NCBI RefSeq assembly: GCF_000013565.1
Contig: NC_007802.1
Coordinates: forward strand, 186,001 to 250,000
Length of the DNA: 64,000 nucleotides
Origin: Jannaschia sp. CCS1
GTDB lineage: Bacteria; Pseudomonadota; Alphaproteobacteria; Rhodobacterales; Rhodobacteraceae
Direction: 5' to 3'
The position numbers and the translations under genes are program-made. A model generated the notes under the pieces. That model did not search any database. It was not told the DNA's origin and worked only from the letters and a program-made list of their open reading frames with translations. Below are positions 37,100 to 51,009 of this stretch, one piece after another. The first letter of the stretch is position 1, and each line of letters opens with the position of its first letter.

Positions 37100-37116
37100 T
37101 TGGTGCCCAGGAGAGG
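37100..37116. repeat. attL: duplicated 3' end of tRNA-Leu
   Basis: TTGGTGCCCAGGAGAGG is identical to 50993-51009, where it forms the 3' end of tRNA-Leu(CAG) including the CCA complement. No tRNA body accompanies this copy, so it is the duplicated attachment core on the far side of the element. The match stops on both sides (C versus G before, C versus A after). Confidence 0.88.
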
Positions 37117-37267: not shown

Positions 37268-38473
37268 ATGGCCCACGTTCTAAATCGACTAAAAGCGACT
37301 CAGATCAGTGCCCTGCCAAAAGGCAAGTATGCCGATGGCGCTGGACTGTGGCTCTATAAGTCAACCGATGAAAGTGGGCAGTGGGTTTTCCGCTATACGC
37401 TCTACACCAGACGTCACGAAATGGGTTTGGGATCTGCTAGCACTGTAGCACTTAAGGCTGCCCGCGCCCGCGCTGCTGGGCTGCGCGAACAAGTCCAACA
37501 AGGTGTTGATCCGATCAAGGCGCGACGCGACGCTGAGCAAGCTGCGCTGCGCAACATGAACACCCTTCATGACGTCACTCTAGACGCGTTCGAAAGCCGC
37601 AAGGCTGATCTTCGTGATGATGGAAAGGCAGGCCGATGGCTCAGCCCGCTTGAATTGCATGTTCTGCCTAAGCTGGGCCGAATGCCTATTTCTGAGATAG
37701 ACCAGCGCGATATCCGCGACACACTCGCACCTATTTGGCACGCCAAGGCCGACACCGCCCGAAAGGCCATGGGGCGTCTCGGTATTGTGTTTAAGCACGC
37801 GGCGGCGCTGGGCTTGGACGTGGATCTACAAGCAACCGAAAAGGCTAAGGCACTGTTGGGTAGGTCAAGACATGTCTCGGAACATATACCGTCAATGGAT
37901 TGGCGGGAGGTGCCCGCGTTTTTCGCCAAGTTGTCCGATGGCTCGACCACGCACCTCGCCCTGCGCTTACTGATTCTCACGGGCCTACGCAGCAAGCCCA
38001 TTCGCTTCGCTCATGTCGATGAAATCGACGGGAACGTATGGACGGTTCCGGGTGAGAAGATGAAGGCCCGAAAGCATCAGTCAGAAGACTTTCGGGTTCC
38101 ACTATCCTCTCTCGCCCTTGAAGTGATCGAGGCAGCGAAGCCAATGGCCCGGGATGGATACCTATTCCCCGGCGTCCGTAAGGGGGTCATTTCAGACGCA
38201 ACCATGTCCAGTCTAATGACGCGCATGGAGTTGACGGCACGGCCCCATGGGTTCCGGTCCAGTTTCAGGGAGTGGGCTGCAAAGGCCGGGGGCGTTGAGT
38301 TCGATACAGCCGAAATGTCGATATCCCACAAGGTCCGAAACAGTACCCAAAAGGCTTACCTTCGCGATGATCAGTTGGAGCAACGGTCAGTCCTGATGGA
38401 GCGTTGGGCCGATCACGTAAGTGGCGGCACGGGGCAGGTTGTTAGCCTAGCTATTGAGGGGCGGCGGTCATGA
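37268..38473 (+). CDS. int: Tyrosine-type site-specific integrase (P4/DUF4102 type)
   Basis: The 401-residue recombinase inserts and excises the element at tRNA-Leu. The N-terminal arm-binding DUF4102-like region (ALPKGKYADGAGLWLYKSTDESGQWVFRYTLYTRRHEMGLGSAS) is typical of P4-type island integrases. In the catalytic domain, R241 (TGLRSKP), H327 with R330 (PHGFRSSFREWA) and the nucleophile Y364 (KAYLRDD) form the R-H-R-Y set. AGGGGG precedes the ATG. It lies 150 bases inside attL, and its stop overlaps the start of the next gene. Confidence 0.93.
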   Translation: MAHVLNRLKATQISALPKGKYADGAGLWLYKSTDESGQWVFRYTLYTRRHEMGLGSASTVALKAARARAAGLREQVQQGVDPIKARRDAEQAALRNMNTLHDVTLDAFESRKADLRDDGKAGRWLSPLELHVLPKLGRMPISEIDQRDIRDTLAPIWHAKADTARKAMGRLGIVFKHAAALGLDVDLQATEKAKALLGRSRHVSEHIPSMDWREVPAFFAKLSDGSTTHLALRLLILTGLRSKPIRFAHVDEIDGNVWTVPGEKMKARKHQSEDFRVPLSSLALEVIEAAKPMARDGYLFPGVRKGVISDATMSSLMTRMELTARPHGFRSSFREWAAKAGGVEFDTAEMSISHKVRNSTQKAYLRDDQLEQRSVLMERWADHVSGGTGQVVSLAIEGRRS

Positions 38474-40209: not shown

Positions 40210-40403
40210 TGACCGCCACAACATCCCCCATCCACATCGTCACACCCATTGCGGGCACTGTTCGGTGGTCACGTTCCGGCCGGAATCTGGGCGTCTGGGG
40301 CAGGGACTTTCCGGTCCGTCCGCTGGTGCTTCTCAGCAATGGCGACGTGCGAGACCTCAGCCCCGCAGAAGCAAAATTCTACAAGCATGTGGGAGCAGTT
40401 TGA
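40209..40403 (+). CDS. Small hypothetical protein before the primase
   Basis: This is a 64-residue protein (MTATTSPIHIVTPIAGTVRW...) with no recognised domain. Its ATG overlaps the last base of the previous stop and its stop overlaps the primase ATG, so it is translated as part of the replication-gene run. The tail LLSNGDVRDLSPAEAKFYKHVGA suggests a small folded domain. Function unknown. Confidence 0.6.
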   Translation: MTATTSPIHIVTPIAGTVRWSRSGRNLGVWGRDFPVRPLVLLSNGDVRDLSPAEAKFYKHVGAV

Positions 40404-41281
40404 TGACCAATGTCCCAATCGACCCCCGTCAACTCACTCAGGACCTTGGTGGCAAATGGGCACAAGCCTACGGAACCGCGCCATGTCCCATCTGCCAAGA
40501 CCGCCGCAAGGGTCAAAATGCTCTGACGATCCGTGTGAAAGGCGACCGCCTGTTGATGCACTGCAAGAAATCCAATTGCAGCTTCATCGACCTTTTGAGG
40601 GCGGCAGGCATTGCCCCAGGAACCGTCGAAATTGATCCGACGGCGCAACGCGAAGCCGACGCGGCGCGGGCTGAATATGAAGCCTACCAGCTTCACCGCG
40701 CACGAAAGGCTTGGGACTACGGCAAGCTGATCACAGGCACCAAAGGCGAGGCATATCTGAGGGGGCGGTGTATCACCTGCCCCCTTCCCGAAACCCTGCG
40801 CTGGATTGCAGACACCTACCACAGCCCGTCTGGGCAATATGGCGCGGCGATTGTTGCGGATGTGCAGCCCACGGGTGGCGTCCATCGGACTTTCTTTGAC
40901 AAGCGCGGCAACCGTTTGGCGAAGAATGCCAAGATGATGCTGGGGCCATGCTCGGGCGGCGCTGTGCGCATGTCTGAGGCGGTAGGGCCGCTCGTGGTGT
41001 GTGAAGGTATCGAGACGGGCCTAAGCCTTCTTTCGGGTCTCTTGGATGGCCCTGCCAACGTCTGGGCGGCGCTGTCCACGTCCGGTCTTCGTGCCTTGGA
41101 CCTTCCCCCTCGCCCGCCCAGTGGATCGCTGATTATTGCCACCGATGGCGACGCTCCAGGGCGTGAAGCCGGGGCAGCACTGGCAGACCGCGCTCACACG
41201 CTGGGCTGGCCCGTCTCGATCATGGCTGCGCCGGACGGGCAAGACTTCAACGATGTATTGATGGAAAGGCGTGCGGCATGA
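40403..41281 (+). CDS. Zinc-finger/Toprim DNA primase-like protein
   Basis: The 292-residue protein has an N-terminal CHC2-like zinc ribbon with C28, C31, C54 and C59. A middle region (YLRGRCITCPLPETLRWIADTYH, GAAIVADVQPTGGVHRTFFD) precedes a Toprim domain with VCEGIETGLSL and IIATDGDAPGREAG as the acidic metal motifs. This is the layout of primases from small phages and satellites. It overlaps DUF3987 (ATGA). The pair would supply primase and helicase-like functions for replication of the element. Confidence 0.85.
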   Translation: MTNVPIDPRQLTQDLGGKWAQAYGTAPCPICQDRRKGQNALTIRVKGDRLLMHCKKSNCSFIDLLRAAGIAPGTVEIDPTAQREADAARAEYEAYQLHRARKAWDYGKLITGTKGEAYLRGRCITCPLPETLRWIADTYHSPSGQYGAAIVADVQPTGGVHRTFFDKRGNRLAKNAKMMLGPCSGGAVRMSEAVGPLVVCEGIETGLSLLSGLLDGPANVWAALSTSGLRALDLPPRPPSGSLIIATDGDAPGREAGAALADRAHTLGWPVSIMAAPDGQDFNDVLMERRAA

Positions 41282-42801
41282 CGGCTATCAAACCCGAAAC
41301 CTACACACCGGAAGGCCCCCAGCCGTTGCTTAGGGAGGTGTCGCCGGGGGCTGAGTATCCTGTTGCATCCCTTGGCCCCCTGAGGGAGGCGGCACAAGCA
41401 GCGCAGGCGACGACGCAGGCCCCTATGGCCCTCGCGGCTCAGTCTGCCTTGTCCGTGGCGTCTCTTGCGGTGCAGGCGCATGGTGACGTTGAAACTCTGG
41501 GCGGCTTCGCCCCGATCAGCCTCTATTGCCTCACTATTGCCCGATCCGGCGAGCGCAAGAGCGCCACGGATAAGCTGTTGATGGCTGGGCTGCGTGAGTT
41601 TGAGCGCGAGGCGGCGGCAGAATATCAGCAAGCGGTTGGCGTTTGGGAAAACACGGCTGAGATACACAAAAACGACCGGGCGCAGATCATGCACGGGTTT
41701 AAGAAGGCCACGGGTTCCGAACGGGTGGCATCGAAGGCTGACTTAGAAGCCTTGGGTGCAGAGCCGCCAGCGCCGTTATTGCCAAACCTGACCGCGACCG
41801 AGCCAACCCTTGAGGGGCTGCACAAGCTGTTTTTGGCGGGCCAGCCTTCGTTGGGTATGTTCTCAGATGAAGGAGGCGGCTTTCTGGGCGGACACGGCAT
41901 GTCGCAGGATCACCGCTTGAAGACAGTGGCGGGACTGTCTGCCTTATGGGGTGGTGATCCATTGACACGAGTGCGCGCTGGCGACGGCACGTCATCGCTC
42001 TTTGGTCGCAGATTGGCAGTGCATTTGATGGTGCAGCCCGTTGCCGCTCGCCCGCTCTTGGCCGATCCTGTTGCCAGCGGGCAGGGCTTCCTCGCGCGGT
42101 TCCTTATAGCAGAACCTCAAACCGCCATAGGCTTACGTCTGGCGTCTGAGCCGCCCGCCGGGGCATCCGCCCAGCTTGCAGCATTCAACGTCCGGCTTCG
42201 CGCCATTCTGGACGCTCCTAAGCCCTTTGCAGGCGATACCCAGCAACAACTTGAACCGCCTCACCTGACCCTGACCCCAGATGCACGGAAGGTGCTTTGG
42301 GACTACTACGTTGAAACCGAAACAGCCCAGCAAGCCGGTGGCAGCCTGGAAGGGCTGACCGCCTACGCGTCTAAGACGGCGGAGCAAGCTGCCCGCATCG
42401 CAGGTGTGTTGACGCTTTGGGAAAATCTCCAAGCCCGTGAAATCCAGATTGGGATGATGAAGAGCGGGGTGCGACTGGCCCGTTTCTATTTGGGTGAAGC
42501 GAAGCGTTTGGCCGAGTCAGCGGAGATCAGTATCGAGACGGAAAAGGCAGAGCGCCTGCGGCTATGGCTACGGGATAGCTGGCCCACGATTGCCAGCGCC
42601 AACGGACGCAATCCGCAGTACGTCCTGCCGCGTGATGTGGTCCAGCACGGGCCGGGAAGCCTGCGCGAAACCAAGACCGCAAAGCAAACGCTTACCATCC
42701 TCTCGGGGCACGGTTGGATCATGCCATTGGAGCGCGGTGCAGTGGTCGATGGGGCGTCGCGCAGGGACGCGTTTCACATTGTCAAAGACGGGCCGCCATG
42801 A
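41278..42801 (+). CDS. DUF3987 (YfjI-like) helicase-type replication protein
   Basis: The 507-residue protein resembles the DUF3987/YfjI family found beside Toprim primases in prophages and satellites. FAPISLYCLTIARSGERKSATDKLLM contains a P-loop-like SGERKS. SLGMFSDEGGGFLGGHGMSQDHRLK and HLMVQPVAARPLLADPVASGQGFLARFLIAEP are typical of the family. The ATG overlaps the primase stop. The iteron array at 42812-42883 begins ten bases after its stop. A replication helicase or initiator role is inferred from context. Confidence 0.82.
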   Translation: MTAIKPETYTPEGPQPLLREVSPGAEYPVASLGPLREAAQAAQATTQAPMALAAQSALSVASLAVQAHGDVETLGGFAPISLYCLTIARSGERKSATDKLLMAGLREFEREAAAEYQQAVGVWENTAEIHKNDRAQIMHGFKKATGSERVASKADLEALGAEPPAPLLPNLTATEPTLEGLHKLFLAGQPSLGMFSDEGGGFLGGHGMSQDHRLKTVAGLSALWGGDPLTRVRAGDGTSSLFGRRLAVHLMVQPVAARPLLADPVASGQGFLARFLIAEPQTAIGLRLASEPPAGASAQLAAFNVRLRAILDAPKPFAGDTQQQLEPPHLTLTPDARKVLWDYYVETETAQQAGGSLEGLTAYASKTAEQAARIAGVLTLWENLQAREIQIGMMKSGVRLARFYLGEAKRLAESAEISIETEKAERLRLWLRDSWPTIASANGRNPQYVLPRDVVQHGPGSLRETKTAKQTLTILSGHGWIMPLERGAVVDGASRRDAFHIVKDGPP

Positions 42802-42811
42802 CCGAGGGGAC

Positions 42812-42883
42812 TGCTACAATTGCTACAACTGCTACAAAGCGCCTTCCAAACCGCACCGTGTAGCAAAAGTAGCAGATGTAGCA
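42812..42883. other. Putative replication origin of the element: inverted 9-base iterons
   Basis: Three TGCTACA heptamers start at 42812, 42821 and 42830. Three in opposite orientation (TGTAGCA, AGTAGCA, TGTAGCA) start at 42859, 42868 and 42877. Both sets have an exact period of 9 and a 22-base spacer between them. The array sits directly after the DUF3987 gene. The right half recurs at 47602. The arrangement resembles the iteron origin and separate cis element of satellite P4. Alternatively, the arms could form one long hairpin terminating the primase operon. Confidence 0.6.
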
Positions 42884-42932
42884 GGGGGCAGTGTTCAAAT
42901 TTCAAAAGCAGAACAGGGAAACGGATCAGACA

Positions 42933-47443: not shown

Positions 47444-47799
47444 CGAGAGAACATTTCATGAACGCAAAGGTAGAGCAAGAGATTCGAAAGTGCAGGCTAC
47501 AGGGCGTGCCGAGCGCGTATGCTGGCCCCAGTCACGAGTGCAGGATGCGTTAGGGTCGCCTACTCCGGCGGTCGTTGTGGCTGACTCACCTACCTAAGGA
47601 ATGTAGCAAAAGTAGCAGATGTAGCAGGGGGCGGAGACAGGTTTCCGGACGGAATGGGTGCGACCCCAGAGTGATTCGCACTTTGAAACTGCAATGGAAC
47701 ATGGACTGAATGTCCAAGTCATTGATGCTGAGTCCTTTTTCTGTCGTTGCCCGCAGGCGAGAGAAATGATTCACTTGCGGTAGCCAGAGGGGGATCAAA
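47444..47799. other. Gene-free 356-base gap with iteron copy
   Basis: This divergent gap lies between the SRAP gene (minus) and the Ntn-hydrolase gene (plus). I see no credible gene. It contains the second iteron group (47602-47626) and, at 47787-47793, the GAGGGGG ribosome-binding site of the following gene. Promoters for both flanking genes are presumably here but no clear hexamers stand out. Confidence 0.6.
47602..47626. repeat. Second iteron group (crr-like copy)
   Basis: TGTAGCA, AGTAGCA and TGTAGCA start at 47602, 47611 and 47620, again with period 9. The 31 bases from 47602 to 47632 are identical to 42859-42889. The inverted left half of the first site is absent here. The distance between the two sites is 4.7 kb. 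Confidence 0.75.
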
Positions 47800-48648
47800 A
47801 TGACGGTGTGCGTTGCGGTTAAGGTGCAGGATTGCATCGTGTTTGCTGCTGATAGCACCACCTCCCTACAAGCTGTTGGAGCCAACGGCGAACATGTGAC
47901 CATGAACACATACGATCATGCAAACAAACTCTTTAATCTGAGAAAGGGATGCCCTGTCGCTGCCATGACGGCAGGGATTGGTAACTTTGGAGGATCTTCC
48001 ATCTCTACGGTGTCCAAAGATTTTCGATCCCTTATTGATCGGCGTGCAGAGGGATATGCTTTGAACTGGGAGAACTACACAATTGAAGAAATTGTTGGCC
48101 TGGCGCGTAAGTACTTCTTTGAAGAGCGCTTCTCTTCACTTTCAGAGAAGCCTCAAGGAAGTTTTCAATACTGGGTTGGCGGCTATTCTTCTGGAGAACA
48201 AATGGGCGAAGTTTGGCAATTTCAGATTCATAATGGAGAATGCTTAGAGCCACAGTGTTCAATTTCACGTAATGTCGCATCTGGTCTTGCATGGGGTGGT
48301 GCACCAGAGGCCATAAATCGCTTGATCCTAGGATATGGACAGCGGATCGGCGATGCTTTGGTTGAGGGAGGGCTTGATGCCTCCCTTGTTCCACAGGCCA
48401 TTGATGGAATTGCGCGATATACCCAATGCTCACTTGTACATGCAGCGATGCCGACTGGGGATGCGATTGATCTTGCAAAATTTCTAGCCGAAACGACCAA
48501 GCAATTTGTCAGATTCATGCCTGGTAGTAATTCAGTGGGTGGCGACCTCGATATTGCCACAATCACTAAGCATGAAAATTTTAAGTGGATCGCAAGAAAG
48601 CACTTCTACAATACTCGCATCAATCCATTGGAGACCAACCATGCCTAA
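47800..48648 (+). CDS. Proteasome-beta-like Ntn hydrolase
   Basis: The 282-residue protein begins M-TVCVAVKVQDCIVFAADSTTS. After removal of the initiator Met, Thr1 is exposed and an Asp falls at position 17, as in the 20S proteasome beta subunit and Anbu. K42 (ANKLFNL) could be the catalytic lysine, shifted by an insertion. AAMTAGIGNFGG resembles the conserved Gly-rich segment near proteasome residue 47. The remaining parts (YWVGGYSSGEQMGEVWQFQ, GLAWGG) fit the sandwich fold. It is visibly AT-richer than its neighbours (25 G+C in 48061-48120). Substrate unknown. The 3' end overlaps the next small gene. Confidence 0.68.
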   Translation: MTVCVAVKVQDCIVFAADSTTSLQAVGANGEHVTMNTYDHANKLFNLRKGCPVAAMTAGIGNFGGSSISTVSKDFRSLIDRRAEGYALNWENYTIEEIVGLARKYFFEERFSSLSEKPQGSFQYWVGGYSSGEQMGEVWQFQIHNGECLEPQCSISRNVASGLAWGGAPEAINRLILGYGQRIGDALVEGGLDASLVPQAIDGIARYTQCSLVHAAMPTGDAIDLAKFLAETTKQFVRFMPGSNSVGGDLDIATITKHENFKWIARKHFYNTRINPLETNHA

Positions 48649-48823
48649 TCTAAACGATGGAACAACAAGAGCGCTTACGGTAGATCCGCAGCCTCGGCGA
48701 GACTTGACCATGCCTCCTATGGTTTCATCTCGTACTGATAGTGCATCAGTGACGATCAAAGATGAAAAGGTGAAAGAAACCACCCCTACCAACTATTTTT
48801 CAGGACTGCATTTCGAAGCATAG
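48641..48823 (+). CDS. 60-residue protein coupled to the Ntn hydrolase
   Basis: The product is a short, polar, proline- and threonine-rich protein (MPNLNDGTTRALTVDPQPRRDL...) with no hydrophobic segment. Its ATG lies inside the last codons of the Ntn-hydrolase gene (8-base overlap), so translation is coupled. The low-complexity, probably unstructured sequence could make it a substrate, inhibitor or targeting partner of the hydrolase, but nothing in the sequence proves this. Confidence 0.55.
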   Translation: MPNLNDGTTRALTVDPQPRRDLTMPPMVSSRTDSASVTIKDEKVKETTPTNYFSGLHFEA

Positions 48824-49624: not shown

Positions 49625-49927
49625 ATGACCAAAGCAATTGCCCCATCCGCAATTGACCGCCGCGCCCTGATGCTGGCCGCTTGGGCTAACACGCGCCGGA
49701 TCATGGTTGCTCTCGGATATGCAGCACACCAGATGCGCACCGTGTTCGCTGCTGAACTGCGCAAGGCATGGGCTGCCGCTAAAGCCGCCGCAAAGGCTGC
49801 AACCACTCCCGTAAAGGATCATAGCGTGAAGCTCGCTATCGTTGCCTTGAACAACAAGGACCGCTGGACCCAAGCGGACTATGCTCGCATGGACGCCCTG
49901 CGCCTAGAGCTGCGGGAGGCAGCATAA
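49625..49927 (+). CDS. Small basic hypothetical protein
   Basis: The 100-residue protein is alanine-rich and basic. An amphipathic N-terminal half is followed by an (A/K)-rich segment (RKAWAAAKAAAKAATTPVKDHSVK) and WTQADYARMDALRLELREAA. It has no membrane segment. AGGAAAGG precedes the ATG. It is the first gene rightward from the four-site operator, so it is probably controlled by the divergent XRE protein. Its TAA overlaps the ATG of the next gene. No family recognised. Confidence 0.6.
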   Translation: MTKAIAPSAIDRRALMLAAWANTRRIMVALGYAAHQMRTVFAAELRKAWAAAKAAAKAATTPVKDHSVKLAIVALNNKDRWTQADYARMDALRLELREAA

Positions 49928-50292
49928 TGGACCGCCGCAAGTTCATCGCCACGTCTGCCGCGCTTCCCTCAGCAGCGCTTGTATCCACAGTCGCCGCCGC
50001 ATCAGTTGAGGAGCCGCACCAGGGTTGGCTGGACGAATGGCGTGAGATTACTGACTACATCAACAGCTATCCCGACGACGATGCGTACACAGAGCTATCG
50101 CCACGCCTGAGTGAACTTGAGCGTCTTCTGGTCGAAACACCAGCCAACACCCCTCAAGGCATTCTGGCCAAAATTGACTACACGATTGAGGACTATGGCG
50201 AATATTTCTTTGGGTGCATCGCAAACGACATGGACCGCAAGATGCTCGCATCGATCCGAGACGCGGTGTCGCTAATGGTGGCGGCTGTATAG
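49927..50292 (+). CDS. Hypothetical protein with Tat-type signal peptide
   Basis: The 121-residue protein starts MDRRKFIATSAALPSAALVSTVAAAS. This is a twin-arginine (RRKF) signal with a moderately hydrophobic region and likely cleavage after AAA. The mature part is acidic (DEWREITDYINSYPDDDAYTELSPRLSELERLL). This indicates a folded exported protein. The start overlaps the stop of the previous gene, so the two are co-translated. No family recognised. Tat export is unusual for satellite cargo. Confidence 0.62.
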   Translation: MDRRKFIATSAALPSAALVSTVAAASVEEPHQGWLDEWREITDYINSYPDDDAYTELSPRLSELERLLVETPANTPQGILAKIDYTIEDYGEYFFGCIANDMDRKMLASIRDAVSLMVAAV

Positions 50293-50401
50293 CGAAAATC
50301 AGTCGTGCCGATAGGCCGTCTCGGTGGCCACATTGGTCAAGGCGACAATCAAACCGTGATCCAGCAGAGGGGAGCAGGAACACTTTCTATTGGGATCACC
50401 A

Positions 50402-50908
50402 ATGAATACTTACCATCGAAACCGAAATTGGTCCGACCAGTTCCTGCCAGACATCAAGCGCATCGTGGGCTCGCATCTTCTAGAGACAGCGCCCGATGCG
50501 CTTGATTGGCATGAGGCAACCGACCTGGTCATGATGGATGCACGGGATATTCGGGTTGCCGCCCGGGTGCGTCGTCCGGGGTTCGCCCAGCGTTACCCAA
50601 ATCAGTTCACGGTGCGAGCGTCCACGCGGAATGGCGGCCCGAGCGAACTCCAGAAGATTGTGAACGGTCACGGCGACTGGATGTTTTACGGTCACGCTGC
50701 CCCGACCGGCGGCATCGCCCTGTGGCAGCTAATTGACCTGCGCGCATTCCGGGCGGCGCTCATACGGCACGGGAATGGAGGCCCGCAGGTTCTCTGGGGA
50801 GACAAGACGAATCCCGACGGCACATCGTTCCGATGGTTCGATGCAAGGAGCTTCCCGGCCTACCCGCCGCTCGTGGTGGCCAGAAGCACTAGAATGGCGG
50901 CCCAGTGA
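50402..50908 (+). CDS. Hypothetical protein
   Basis: The 168-residue protein from MNTYHRNRNWSDQFLPDIKRIV has no assigned family. DWHEATDLVMMDARDIRVAARVRRPGF...QFTVRASTRNGGPSELQKIVNGHGDWMFYGHAAPTGGIALWQLIDL shows alternating strands with an acidic residue in a D-x-V/ER-like spacing. This could fit a nuclease-like fold, but I cannot demonstrate it. It is the last gene of the element before attR, separated by 109 bases from the Tat-signal gene. Confidence 0.55.
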   Translation: MNTYHRNRNWSDQFLPDIKRIVGSHLLETAPDALDWHEATDLVMMDARDIRVAARVRRPGFAQRYPNQFTVRASTRNGGPSELQKIVNGHGDWMFYGHAAPTGGIALWQLIDLRAFRAALIRHGNGGPQVLWGDKTNPDGTSFRWFDARSFPAYPPLVVARSTRMAAQ

Positions 50909-50992: not shown

Positions 50993-51009
50993 TTGGTGCC
51001 CAGGAGAGG
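50993..51009. repeat. attR: tRNA-Leu 3' end core
   Basis: TTGGTGCCCAGGAGAGG covers the encoded CCA, the discriminator base and the 3' acceptor strand of tRNA-Leu, and is identical to 37100-37116. The tRNA is left intact, so the insertion is silent for the host. Confidence 0.88.

Follow-up and report, generated by a model that had tools for sequence, protein, structure and literature searches.

INTRODUCTION

In their 2021 survey, Fuchs, Alva, and Lupas (PMC8665760) described 22 new, uncharacterised proteasome homologs and reported finding no genomic context or co-occurrence pattern for them that pointed to a function. Types PMI-1 to PMI-6 have a proteasome-like fold and catalytic residues, lack a propeptide, and occur in bacteria and archaea, as does the hydrolase family described here; PMI-2 to PMI-6 also carry an insertion between H3 and H4, which our structural model, judged by eye, seems to have too. 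The same survey text states that insertions between H3 and H4 could prevent double rings, that in bacteria and eukaryotes propeptides help proteasomes to assemble, and that connectase is a proteasome homolog with ligase activity. Relative to the PMI types, which we compared by description and not by sequence clustering, the pair described here adds a conserved small partner and, in some relatives, a link to toxin genes, neither of which is described in the accessible survey text. The original prediction for this locus, made from its nucleotide sequence, knew of no described system of this form; this needs narrowing, as proteasome homologs of a similar general type were catalogued in 2021.

Anbu, BPH, HslV, and the 20S proteasome beta subunit share the Thr1-Asp17-Lys pattern and the fold, but our protein has no Pfam or NCBIfam match and is accompanied by a small partner and by no recognised ATPase. 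Type II toxin-antitoxin systems (VapBC, MazEF, and RelBE/ParDE) resemble the 15 of 74 testable relative loci in which a small gene directly precedes a PIN, PemK/MazF, or ParE gene; they differ in that here a proteasome-like hydrolase gene comes before the small gene, and in that no toxin gene was found in the other 59 loci or in our own. Most toxin-antitoxin pairs have a gene order unlike this hydrolase-first arrangement. In the caspase homolog MaOC1 of Microcystis, as presented in the available part of its description (PMC7935541), the protease gene likewise adjoins a toxin-antitoxin pair, a ParE/ParD-like module whose antitoxin MaOC1 cleaves. That system, however, has a cysteine caspase fold and a folded helical antitoxin and was tested experimentally, whereas ours has a Thr Ntn fold and is described from its genes. 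A term search of the accessible text of a 2026 review citing the survey (PMC13022661) returned neither 'toxin' nor 'phage', and our literature search, with most subscription journals and bioRxiv outside its scope, found no system linking a proteasome homolog, a partner, and a toxin.

Prokaryotes and phages contain scattered proteasome homologs that are uncharacterised, and the 2021 survey states that no informative gene context was found for them (PMC8665760). A conserved partner and, in some lineages, adjacent toxin genes give these proteins a directly testable function, and the pair may connect the evolution of proteasomes with the biology of toxin-antitoxin systems. Cleavage of the partner by the hydrolase would mean toxin-antitoxin modules that bring along a trigger protease of their own; a hydrolase that is itself the toxin would make a proteasome-type enzyme a new toxin class.

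RESULTS

A hydrolase with a predicted proteasome beta-type fold

The window analysed is a 64,000-nucleotide stretch of the Jannaschia sp. CCS1 genome (NC_007802.1, positions 186,001 to 250,000), and all coordinates refer to it. A forward-strand gene at 47800..48648 codes for a 282-aa protein, which alignment, AlphaFold2 modelling, and Foldseek place among proteasome beta-type Ntn hydrolases. The protein begins M-T-V-C (the longer start, from the translation of 47800-48648, is MTVCVAVKVQDCIVFAADSTTS), and with the Met removed it has Thr at position 1, Asp at 17, and Lys at 42, the proteasome beta/Anbu-type spacing from which the original prediction started. We aligned 68 sequences, namely 66 of the 69 full-length relatives (without L022, L023, and L082) together with L048 and the window protein, leaving out truncated or frameshifted loci. 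In Met numbering, the nucleophile at position 2 is Thr in 56 and Ser in 12, D18, S19, and K43 are each present in all 68, and position 1 is a start codon throughout (ATG in 56, GTG in nine, TTG in three). L082 and L023, outside the alignment, also carry the Thr, directly behind a GTG or TTG start codon.

Neither the window hydrolase nor its 60-aa partner matches Pfam, NCBIfam, or PADLOC above threshold, and curated models recognise few family members: one of the 68 matches Pfam Proteasome (E = 8.9e-5) and five match arc_protsome_B (best E = 2.7e-4). A family profile searched against PDB sequences finds proteasome beta subunits first, at E = 0.012, so the kinship in sequence is remote. The AlphaFold2 model built from the 68-sequence alignment has pLDDT 92.4 and pTM 0.88, and the best 50 Foldseek matches listed against the PDB are all proteasome structures (top E = 3e-9, probability 1.0; TM 0.47 to query and 0.66 to target for the top match). 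These values make a proteasome beta-type Ntn hydrolase fold a high-confidence prediction for the window protein. The original prediction had tied its reading to an Ntn fold and to a Thr at position 2; the model and the Foldseek matches give the proteasome beta fold, and Thr occupies that position in 56 of 68 relatives, though Ser does in 12.

The model also has extra helices at 183-189 and 194-208, between the helices at 170-177 and 219-238, and by eye these seem to be an insertion between H3 and H4. The protein had been proposed to be self-compartmentalised; this is unsupported, and the extra helices of the model seem to sit where, according to the available survey text, insertions could prevent double rings (PMC8665760). 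Among phage protein families, the window hydrolase matches PHROG 5990, for which no function is given, at E = 7e-11; that profile is longer, with 427 positions, and the longer relatives described below have a large middle insertion.

The overlapping small gene is a conserved partner

Directly downstream, a forward-strand gene at 48641..48823 codes for a 60-aa protein, which we describe as a small, disordered, antitoxin-like partner on the basis of its positional conservation, pN/pS, motifs, and predicted disorder. It overlaps the 3' end of the hydrolase gene by eight bases (48641..48648), which likely provides translational coupling, and a GGAG ribosome-site-like motif (48630..48633) lies within the last hydrolase codons, as it does in many relatives. 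By a strict rule (a ribosome-site-like motif and an ORF of 45-130 aa with an ATG or GTG start no more than 20 nt from the hydrolase stop), a small ORF follows 47 of 72 family ORFs but only 45 of 1357 control ORFs (Fisher p = 8e-44); the controls are other ORFs of at least 200 aa at the same loci and include non-coding ones, rows are not independent, and the duplicate contigs L016, L017, and L022 were left out of the count. A looser count, by which all 79 loci carry a small ORF of one kind or another, was rejected because its criterion is too permissive. In a set of 29 alphaproteobacterial-type loci, the chosen partner start overlaps the hydrolase gene in every one, by 8 nt in 18 and by 11 nt in eight. 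All 20 close pairs compared, two of which involve the window, have pN below pS in the partner, and in all 20 the partner evolves faster than the hydrolase.

The 60-aa partner gene is real, and the short, dedicated, disordered-looking partner of the original prediction is borne out: the gene is conserved at this place, is under purifying selection, and codes for a protein predicted to have no secondary structure (pTM 0.21). It is very improbable that the small ORF merely overlaps by chance and that the hydrolase acts without a partner. Partners of other phyla do fail to match the alphaproteobacterial profile (no significant match, best E = 0.16), and L078 has no convincing partner, but the strict-rule excess, the pN/pS values, and the 29 of 29 overlaps all argue otherwise, and positional conservation and purifying selection largely refute this reading for the alphaproteobacterial form.

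The partners have diverged considerably. Across 25 aligned sequences only Met1 and one Pro (Pro25) are invariant; visual inspection also suggests a common PPY/PPM-like segment near the middle and, in many of them, a hydrophobic tail at the C-terminus. At E < 1e-5, the partner profile finds two of 390 genomes of the order (G000 and G406) and four of 195 relatives (G000, G023, G041, and G114), with the window's genome counted in both sets and every match beside a hydrolase gene; all but G041 were also training rows of the profile, and the informative part is thus that there is no strong match elsewhere. Weak matches in other genomes (E = 0.004-0.01) were taken as noise. The profile also misses the partner in G367, where a hydrolase of 44 percent identity has an adjacent small ORF. 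PDB searches with two antitoxin-like partners returned no match. An aromatic-x-aromatic motif occurs in 19 of 50 non-alphaproteobacterial partners, compared with 10.8 expected (p = 0.002), and a QR-extended version in six compared with 1.3 expected (p = 0.0005); its presence in both groups of partners lends weak support to their kinship, because the patterns were picked after inspection. At one locus (L003 and L035 are the same), a second, tandem partner-like copy is seen at L003 2751-2897 (G114:C642:6798-6962), with one stop codon in the match.

The recurring middle and C-terminal motifs would suit a peptide precursor, and the survey describes connectase, a proteasome homolog that acts as a ligase (PMC8665760). 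A connectase-like protein ligase or a peptide-maturation enzyme, with the partner as the precursor to be cut or ligated, nonetheless seems improbable: no strict cleavage site is seen in the 25 aligned partners, in which just one Pro is invariant besides Met1, and the toxin genes that follow some partners would be left unexplained.

Relatives across bacteria and archaea, and longer forms in phages and plasmids

The pair belongs to a broad family of such gene pairs. A three-sequence alignment, with which the search was biased to two short peptide patterns, identified at least 78 loci among 84,980 species genomes, in alphaproteobacteria, other Proteobacteria, Actinomycetota, Acidobacteriota, Chloroflexota, Bacillota, Bacteroidota, Planctomycetota, other phyla, and archaea; several of these loci are MAG contigs. 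The search for the same gene pair elsewhere, suggested with the original prediction, thus yields relatives in both bacteria and archaea. Nearer to the window, any hydrolase match is found in seven of 195 relatives and eight of 390 genomes of the order, counts that both contain the window's own genome and include partial matches of the long type.

Longer relatives of ~413-442 aa have the same ends and a large middle insertion, and come from Rhizobium plasmids, a Porphyromonas phage, and 26 viral contigs; our guess is that they correspond to PMI-4. Scanning IMG/VR with the narrow, compact family gave no relatives, so carriage by phages is shown there for the longer relatives (26 loci) but not for the compact form. 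Small ORFs lie behind several longer relatives, and a similar strict rule, with the start window extended to +30, detects one at seven of the 26 viral loci; partners of the long class are therefore either less regular or shorter. At L027 the longer hydrolase and its partner form a single 510-codon frame. They are separate at L024 (442 and 70 aa), where the partner begins 12 nt past the stop in the same frame, such that a single stop loss or a sequencing error would give the fusion.

Several settings of the relatives were recorded in passing. In Pseudomonas phages (16 matches, of which LESphi2 and LPPA33 were viewed), a proteasome-like gene adjoins the tail-fibre genes on the opposite strand, in an accessory-gene position (L011 287-1309; L012 7163-8023); the two relatives inspected have no convincing partner and no ribosome site. 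On two of two Rhizobium plasmids viewed, of five plasmid matches, a longer relative lies near, a few genes away from, a cluster annotated with multiubiquitin, ThiF E1, DUF6527, and ClpP (L014 4945-11428; L015 3945-10101). IS1595-type transposase genes are near the pair at L039, L040, L042, L082, and L107, with a 65-aa fragment at L053; they have 54-61 percent identity over 314-317 aa by BLAST, and the one scanned with Pfam, from L040, has the zinc ribbon. The pair may be a transposon passenger at these loci, where a search for surrounding inverted repeats gave no clear element ends.

Toxin genes follow the partner in some lineages

To describe what lies behind the partner, we defined a third gene as an ORF of 60-200 aa positioned -45 to +60 nt from the partner, and called toxins at a Pfam E-value of 1e-3 or lower. 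Two of 76 loci are too short, leaving 74 testable; 28 have an ORF at the third place, and 15 of those 28 match a toxin family (10 PIN, two PemK/MazF, two ParE_toxin, and one ParE_like). PIN, MazF, and ParE proteins are RNase or gyrase-type toxins. Below the Pfam threshold, and outside the 15, are an eleventh PIN-like ORF and the ParE-like ORFs of L087 and L090, which our own ParE HMM groups with L106, both being in its training set. Counting these three homologs, 13 of 18 toxin frames overlap the end of the partner gene. HMMs built from the third-gene toxins match 16 of 1089 neighbouring ORFs, 15 of them at the third place, with the training rows included.

The excess depends on how it is counted. 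Among 50 random ORFs of 80-170 aa from the same loci, away from the pair, three to five toxin matches were found (one ParE, one HepT, and one each of PIN, PIN_2, and PIN_3, these last three probably being one protein; 22 families matched), and in a wider control of 120 of 266 random ORFs at least two (ParE and HepT) among the 25 of 54 matching families listed. Per ORF, 15 of 28 versus three to five of 50 is a clear excess (p = 4e-6 to 7e-5); per locus, 15 of 74 is a weak one (p = 0.04 to 0.14). With the PIN rows removed, the per-ORF comparison falls to five of 17 (p = 0.02 to 0.11) and the per-locus excess is nil (p = 1.0). On the hydrolase tree, counting only the toxin-bearing rows and with labels that include the three below-threshold homologs, PIN forms one clade, in Acidobacteriota, ParE requires three changes, and MazF two; the three toxin types together require three changes, the minimum being two, and the well-supported branches compel no separate origins. 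Because 10 of the 15 cases fall in one clade and the loci are toxin-rich elsewhere too, we regard the toxin link as suggestive rather than settled; from these gene arrangements it appears real in some lineages, and its generality is uncertain. An archaeal contig, L069, has a partner with a P-x-Y-x-Y segment like those of alphaproteobacterial partners and, by our own reading, what may be a RelB-like end, followed by a ParE toxin gene. In two sphingomonads, a YoeB-like gene was seen by eye within ~130 nt of the pair (L043 10127-10644; L044 753-1019), L043 also having a YefM-like gene nearby.

Another account makes the hydrolase a dedicated antitoxin-degrading protease. The hydrolase would turn the partner over steadily, and a stop in protein synthesis, such as during phage infection, would drain the pool of partner and release an effector, which in two-gene forms would be encoded elsewhere or be a host protein. 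PIN, MazF, and ParE toxins as third genes agree with this, as does the predicted disorder of the partner, protease substrates often being disordered. MaOC1 offers a precedent in the accessible description of that system (PMC7935541). We nevertheless consider this account unlikely, while taking it seriously, as no toxin gene was found in 59 of 74 loci, which leaves the hydrolase plus the partner as the common denominator, and as the fused version at L027 fits a stoichiometric partner better than a consumed substrate. The same 59 loci and the window indicate that toxin control is not a universal use.

We tentatively favor, at a little short of an even chance, a toxin-antitoxin-like module with its own proteasome-family hydrolase, in which the disordered partner restrains the hydrolase and is probably cleaved by it. 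In such a module the hydrolase and the small protein would be made together through coupled translation, and Met removal would expose the Thr1 nucleophile. The disordered partner could then dock along the hydrolase, using its central PPY/PPM segment and the hydrophobic tail at its C-terminus, and act as a dedicated ligand, most likely inhibitor and substrate in one. In some relatives the partner may also be the antitoxin of the PIN, MazF, or ParE toxin encoded behind it, and its cleavage or loss in these three-gene forms would free the toxin. The window has the form with two genes, and here partner loss would most likely free the hydrolase itself as the effector. We infer the binding, the cleavage, which protein inhibits which, and the biological use.

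In favor of such a module are the predicted fold, the active-site residues, the conserved pair with its coding partner, the mobile setting, and the third-gene toxins of some lineages, with three toxin folds at the same place behind the partner. The single frame at L027, which joins a longer relative to its partner, also fits, and MaOC1, as far as its accessible description goes, would be an analogous precedent for a protease controlling an adjacent toxin-antitoxin pair (PMC7935541). Counting against it are the partners of other phyla, which do not match the alphaproteobacterial profile, the confinement of the PIN cases to one clade, and the hydrolase-first gene order. Loci with a broken hydrolase and an intact partner (L018, L068, L085, L102, and L105) could be taken for toxin-like decay; we set them aside because the hydrolase gene is ~5x longer and MAG frameshifts are possible.

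A broader formulation is conceivable, and we rate it somewhat less likely than not: a widespread bacterial and archaeal conflict module whose core is a proteasome-family Thr/Ser hydrolase with its own disordered antitoxin, to which interchangeable third-gene toxins are added by way of the antitoxin, the hydrolase being a self-contained trigger or effector that replaces host Lon/Clp. If true, it would provide a function for one branch of the 2021 catalogue of proteasome homologs, as far as the catalogue is represented in the available text (PMC8665760).

The pair lies on an element integrated at a tRNA-Leu gene

The original prediction placed the pair on a mobile element, and the surrounding DNA agrees. 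A repeat search identified a 17-bp left attachment repeat, TTGGTGCCCAGGAGAGG, at 37100..37116 and its 17-bp right counterpart at 50993..51009, at the 3' end of a tRNA-Leu(CAG) gene, delimiting a 13.9 kb element. Just inside the left repeat is a forward-strand tyrosine integrase gene (37268..38473; Arm-DNA-bind_3, Phage_int_M, and Phage_integrase), followed on the same strand by a Toprim/DUF7146 gene, scanned from 40403 with its start codon unsettled, and a DUF3987 gene (together 40403..42801, from Pfam); neither of these DUF families has a named function. Pfam also identifies SRAP, SNase-like, and HTH genes on the element. The distance from the left-hand gene to the tRNA is ~90-125 nt in six of 12 sister species (G001, G004, G005, G009, G010, and G011), whose sites are thus nearly empty, and 13,977 nt in the window. 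Other gaps at the same site are 0.4 kb (G002), 2.4 kb (G007), 10.4 kb (G006), and 21.5 kb (G012), with the site rearranged in G003 and split over contigs in G008; it is probably an integration hot spot.

The gene that follows the window pair is on the opposite strand, and Pfam matches of 10 island proteins scanned include no toxin family and, as anticipated in the original prediction, no ATPase, ubiquitin-like, or alpha-type partner. On the element, the favored toxin-antitoxin-like module would act as an addiction or host-protection device. The original prediction had suggested phage defence, exclusion, or helper control as candidate roles; neither window protein matches a PADLOC defence model.

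A more benign role for the partner is as a cofactor that helps to assemble, activate, or target a cytosolic peptidase, in effect a propeptide in trans, with no conflict role and with toxins as opportunistic neighbors. We judge this rather unlikely. The close pairing, the overlapping genes, the partner disorder, and the L027 fusion would all be expected of a cofactor, toxins are common elsewhere at the same loci, and the accessible survey text credits propeptides with assisting proteasome assembly (PMC8665760). Such a peptidase should not, however, be as patchy as this one, which is absent from all 12 other genomes of the genus, nor would it account for the mobile settings (the tRNA element and the IS1595-type transposase loci) or for toxin genes making up 15 of the 28 third-place ORFs.

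Two further observations concern the element. In Roseovarius (L032 7676-8866), look-alikes of the accessory genes at window positions 49927-50908 were seen by eye beside a relative of the pair. The element also contains two identical 31-nt copies of a direct repeat, each with TGTAGCA units inside, at 42859-42889 and 47602-47632, 4.7 kb apart; the second copy lies ~170 nt upstream of the hydrolase gene, and the repeat is perhaps a cassette border or a binding site.
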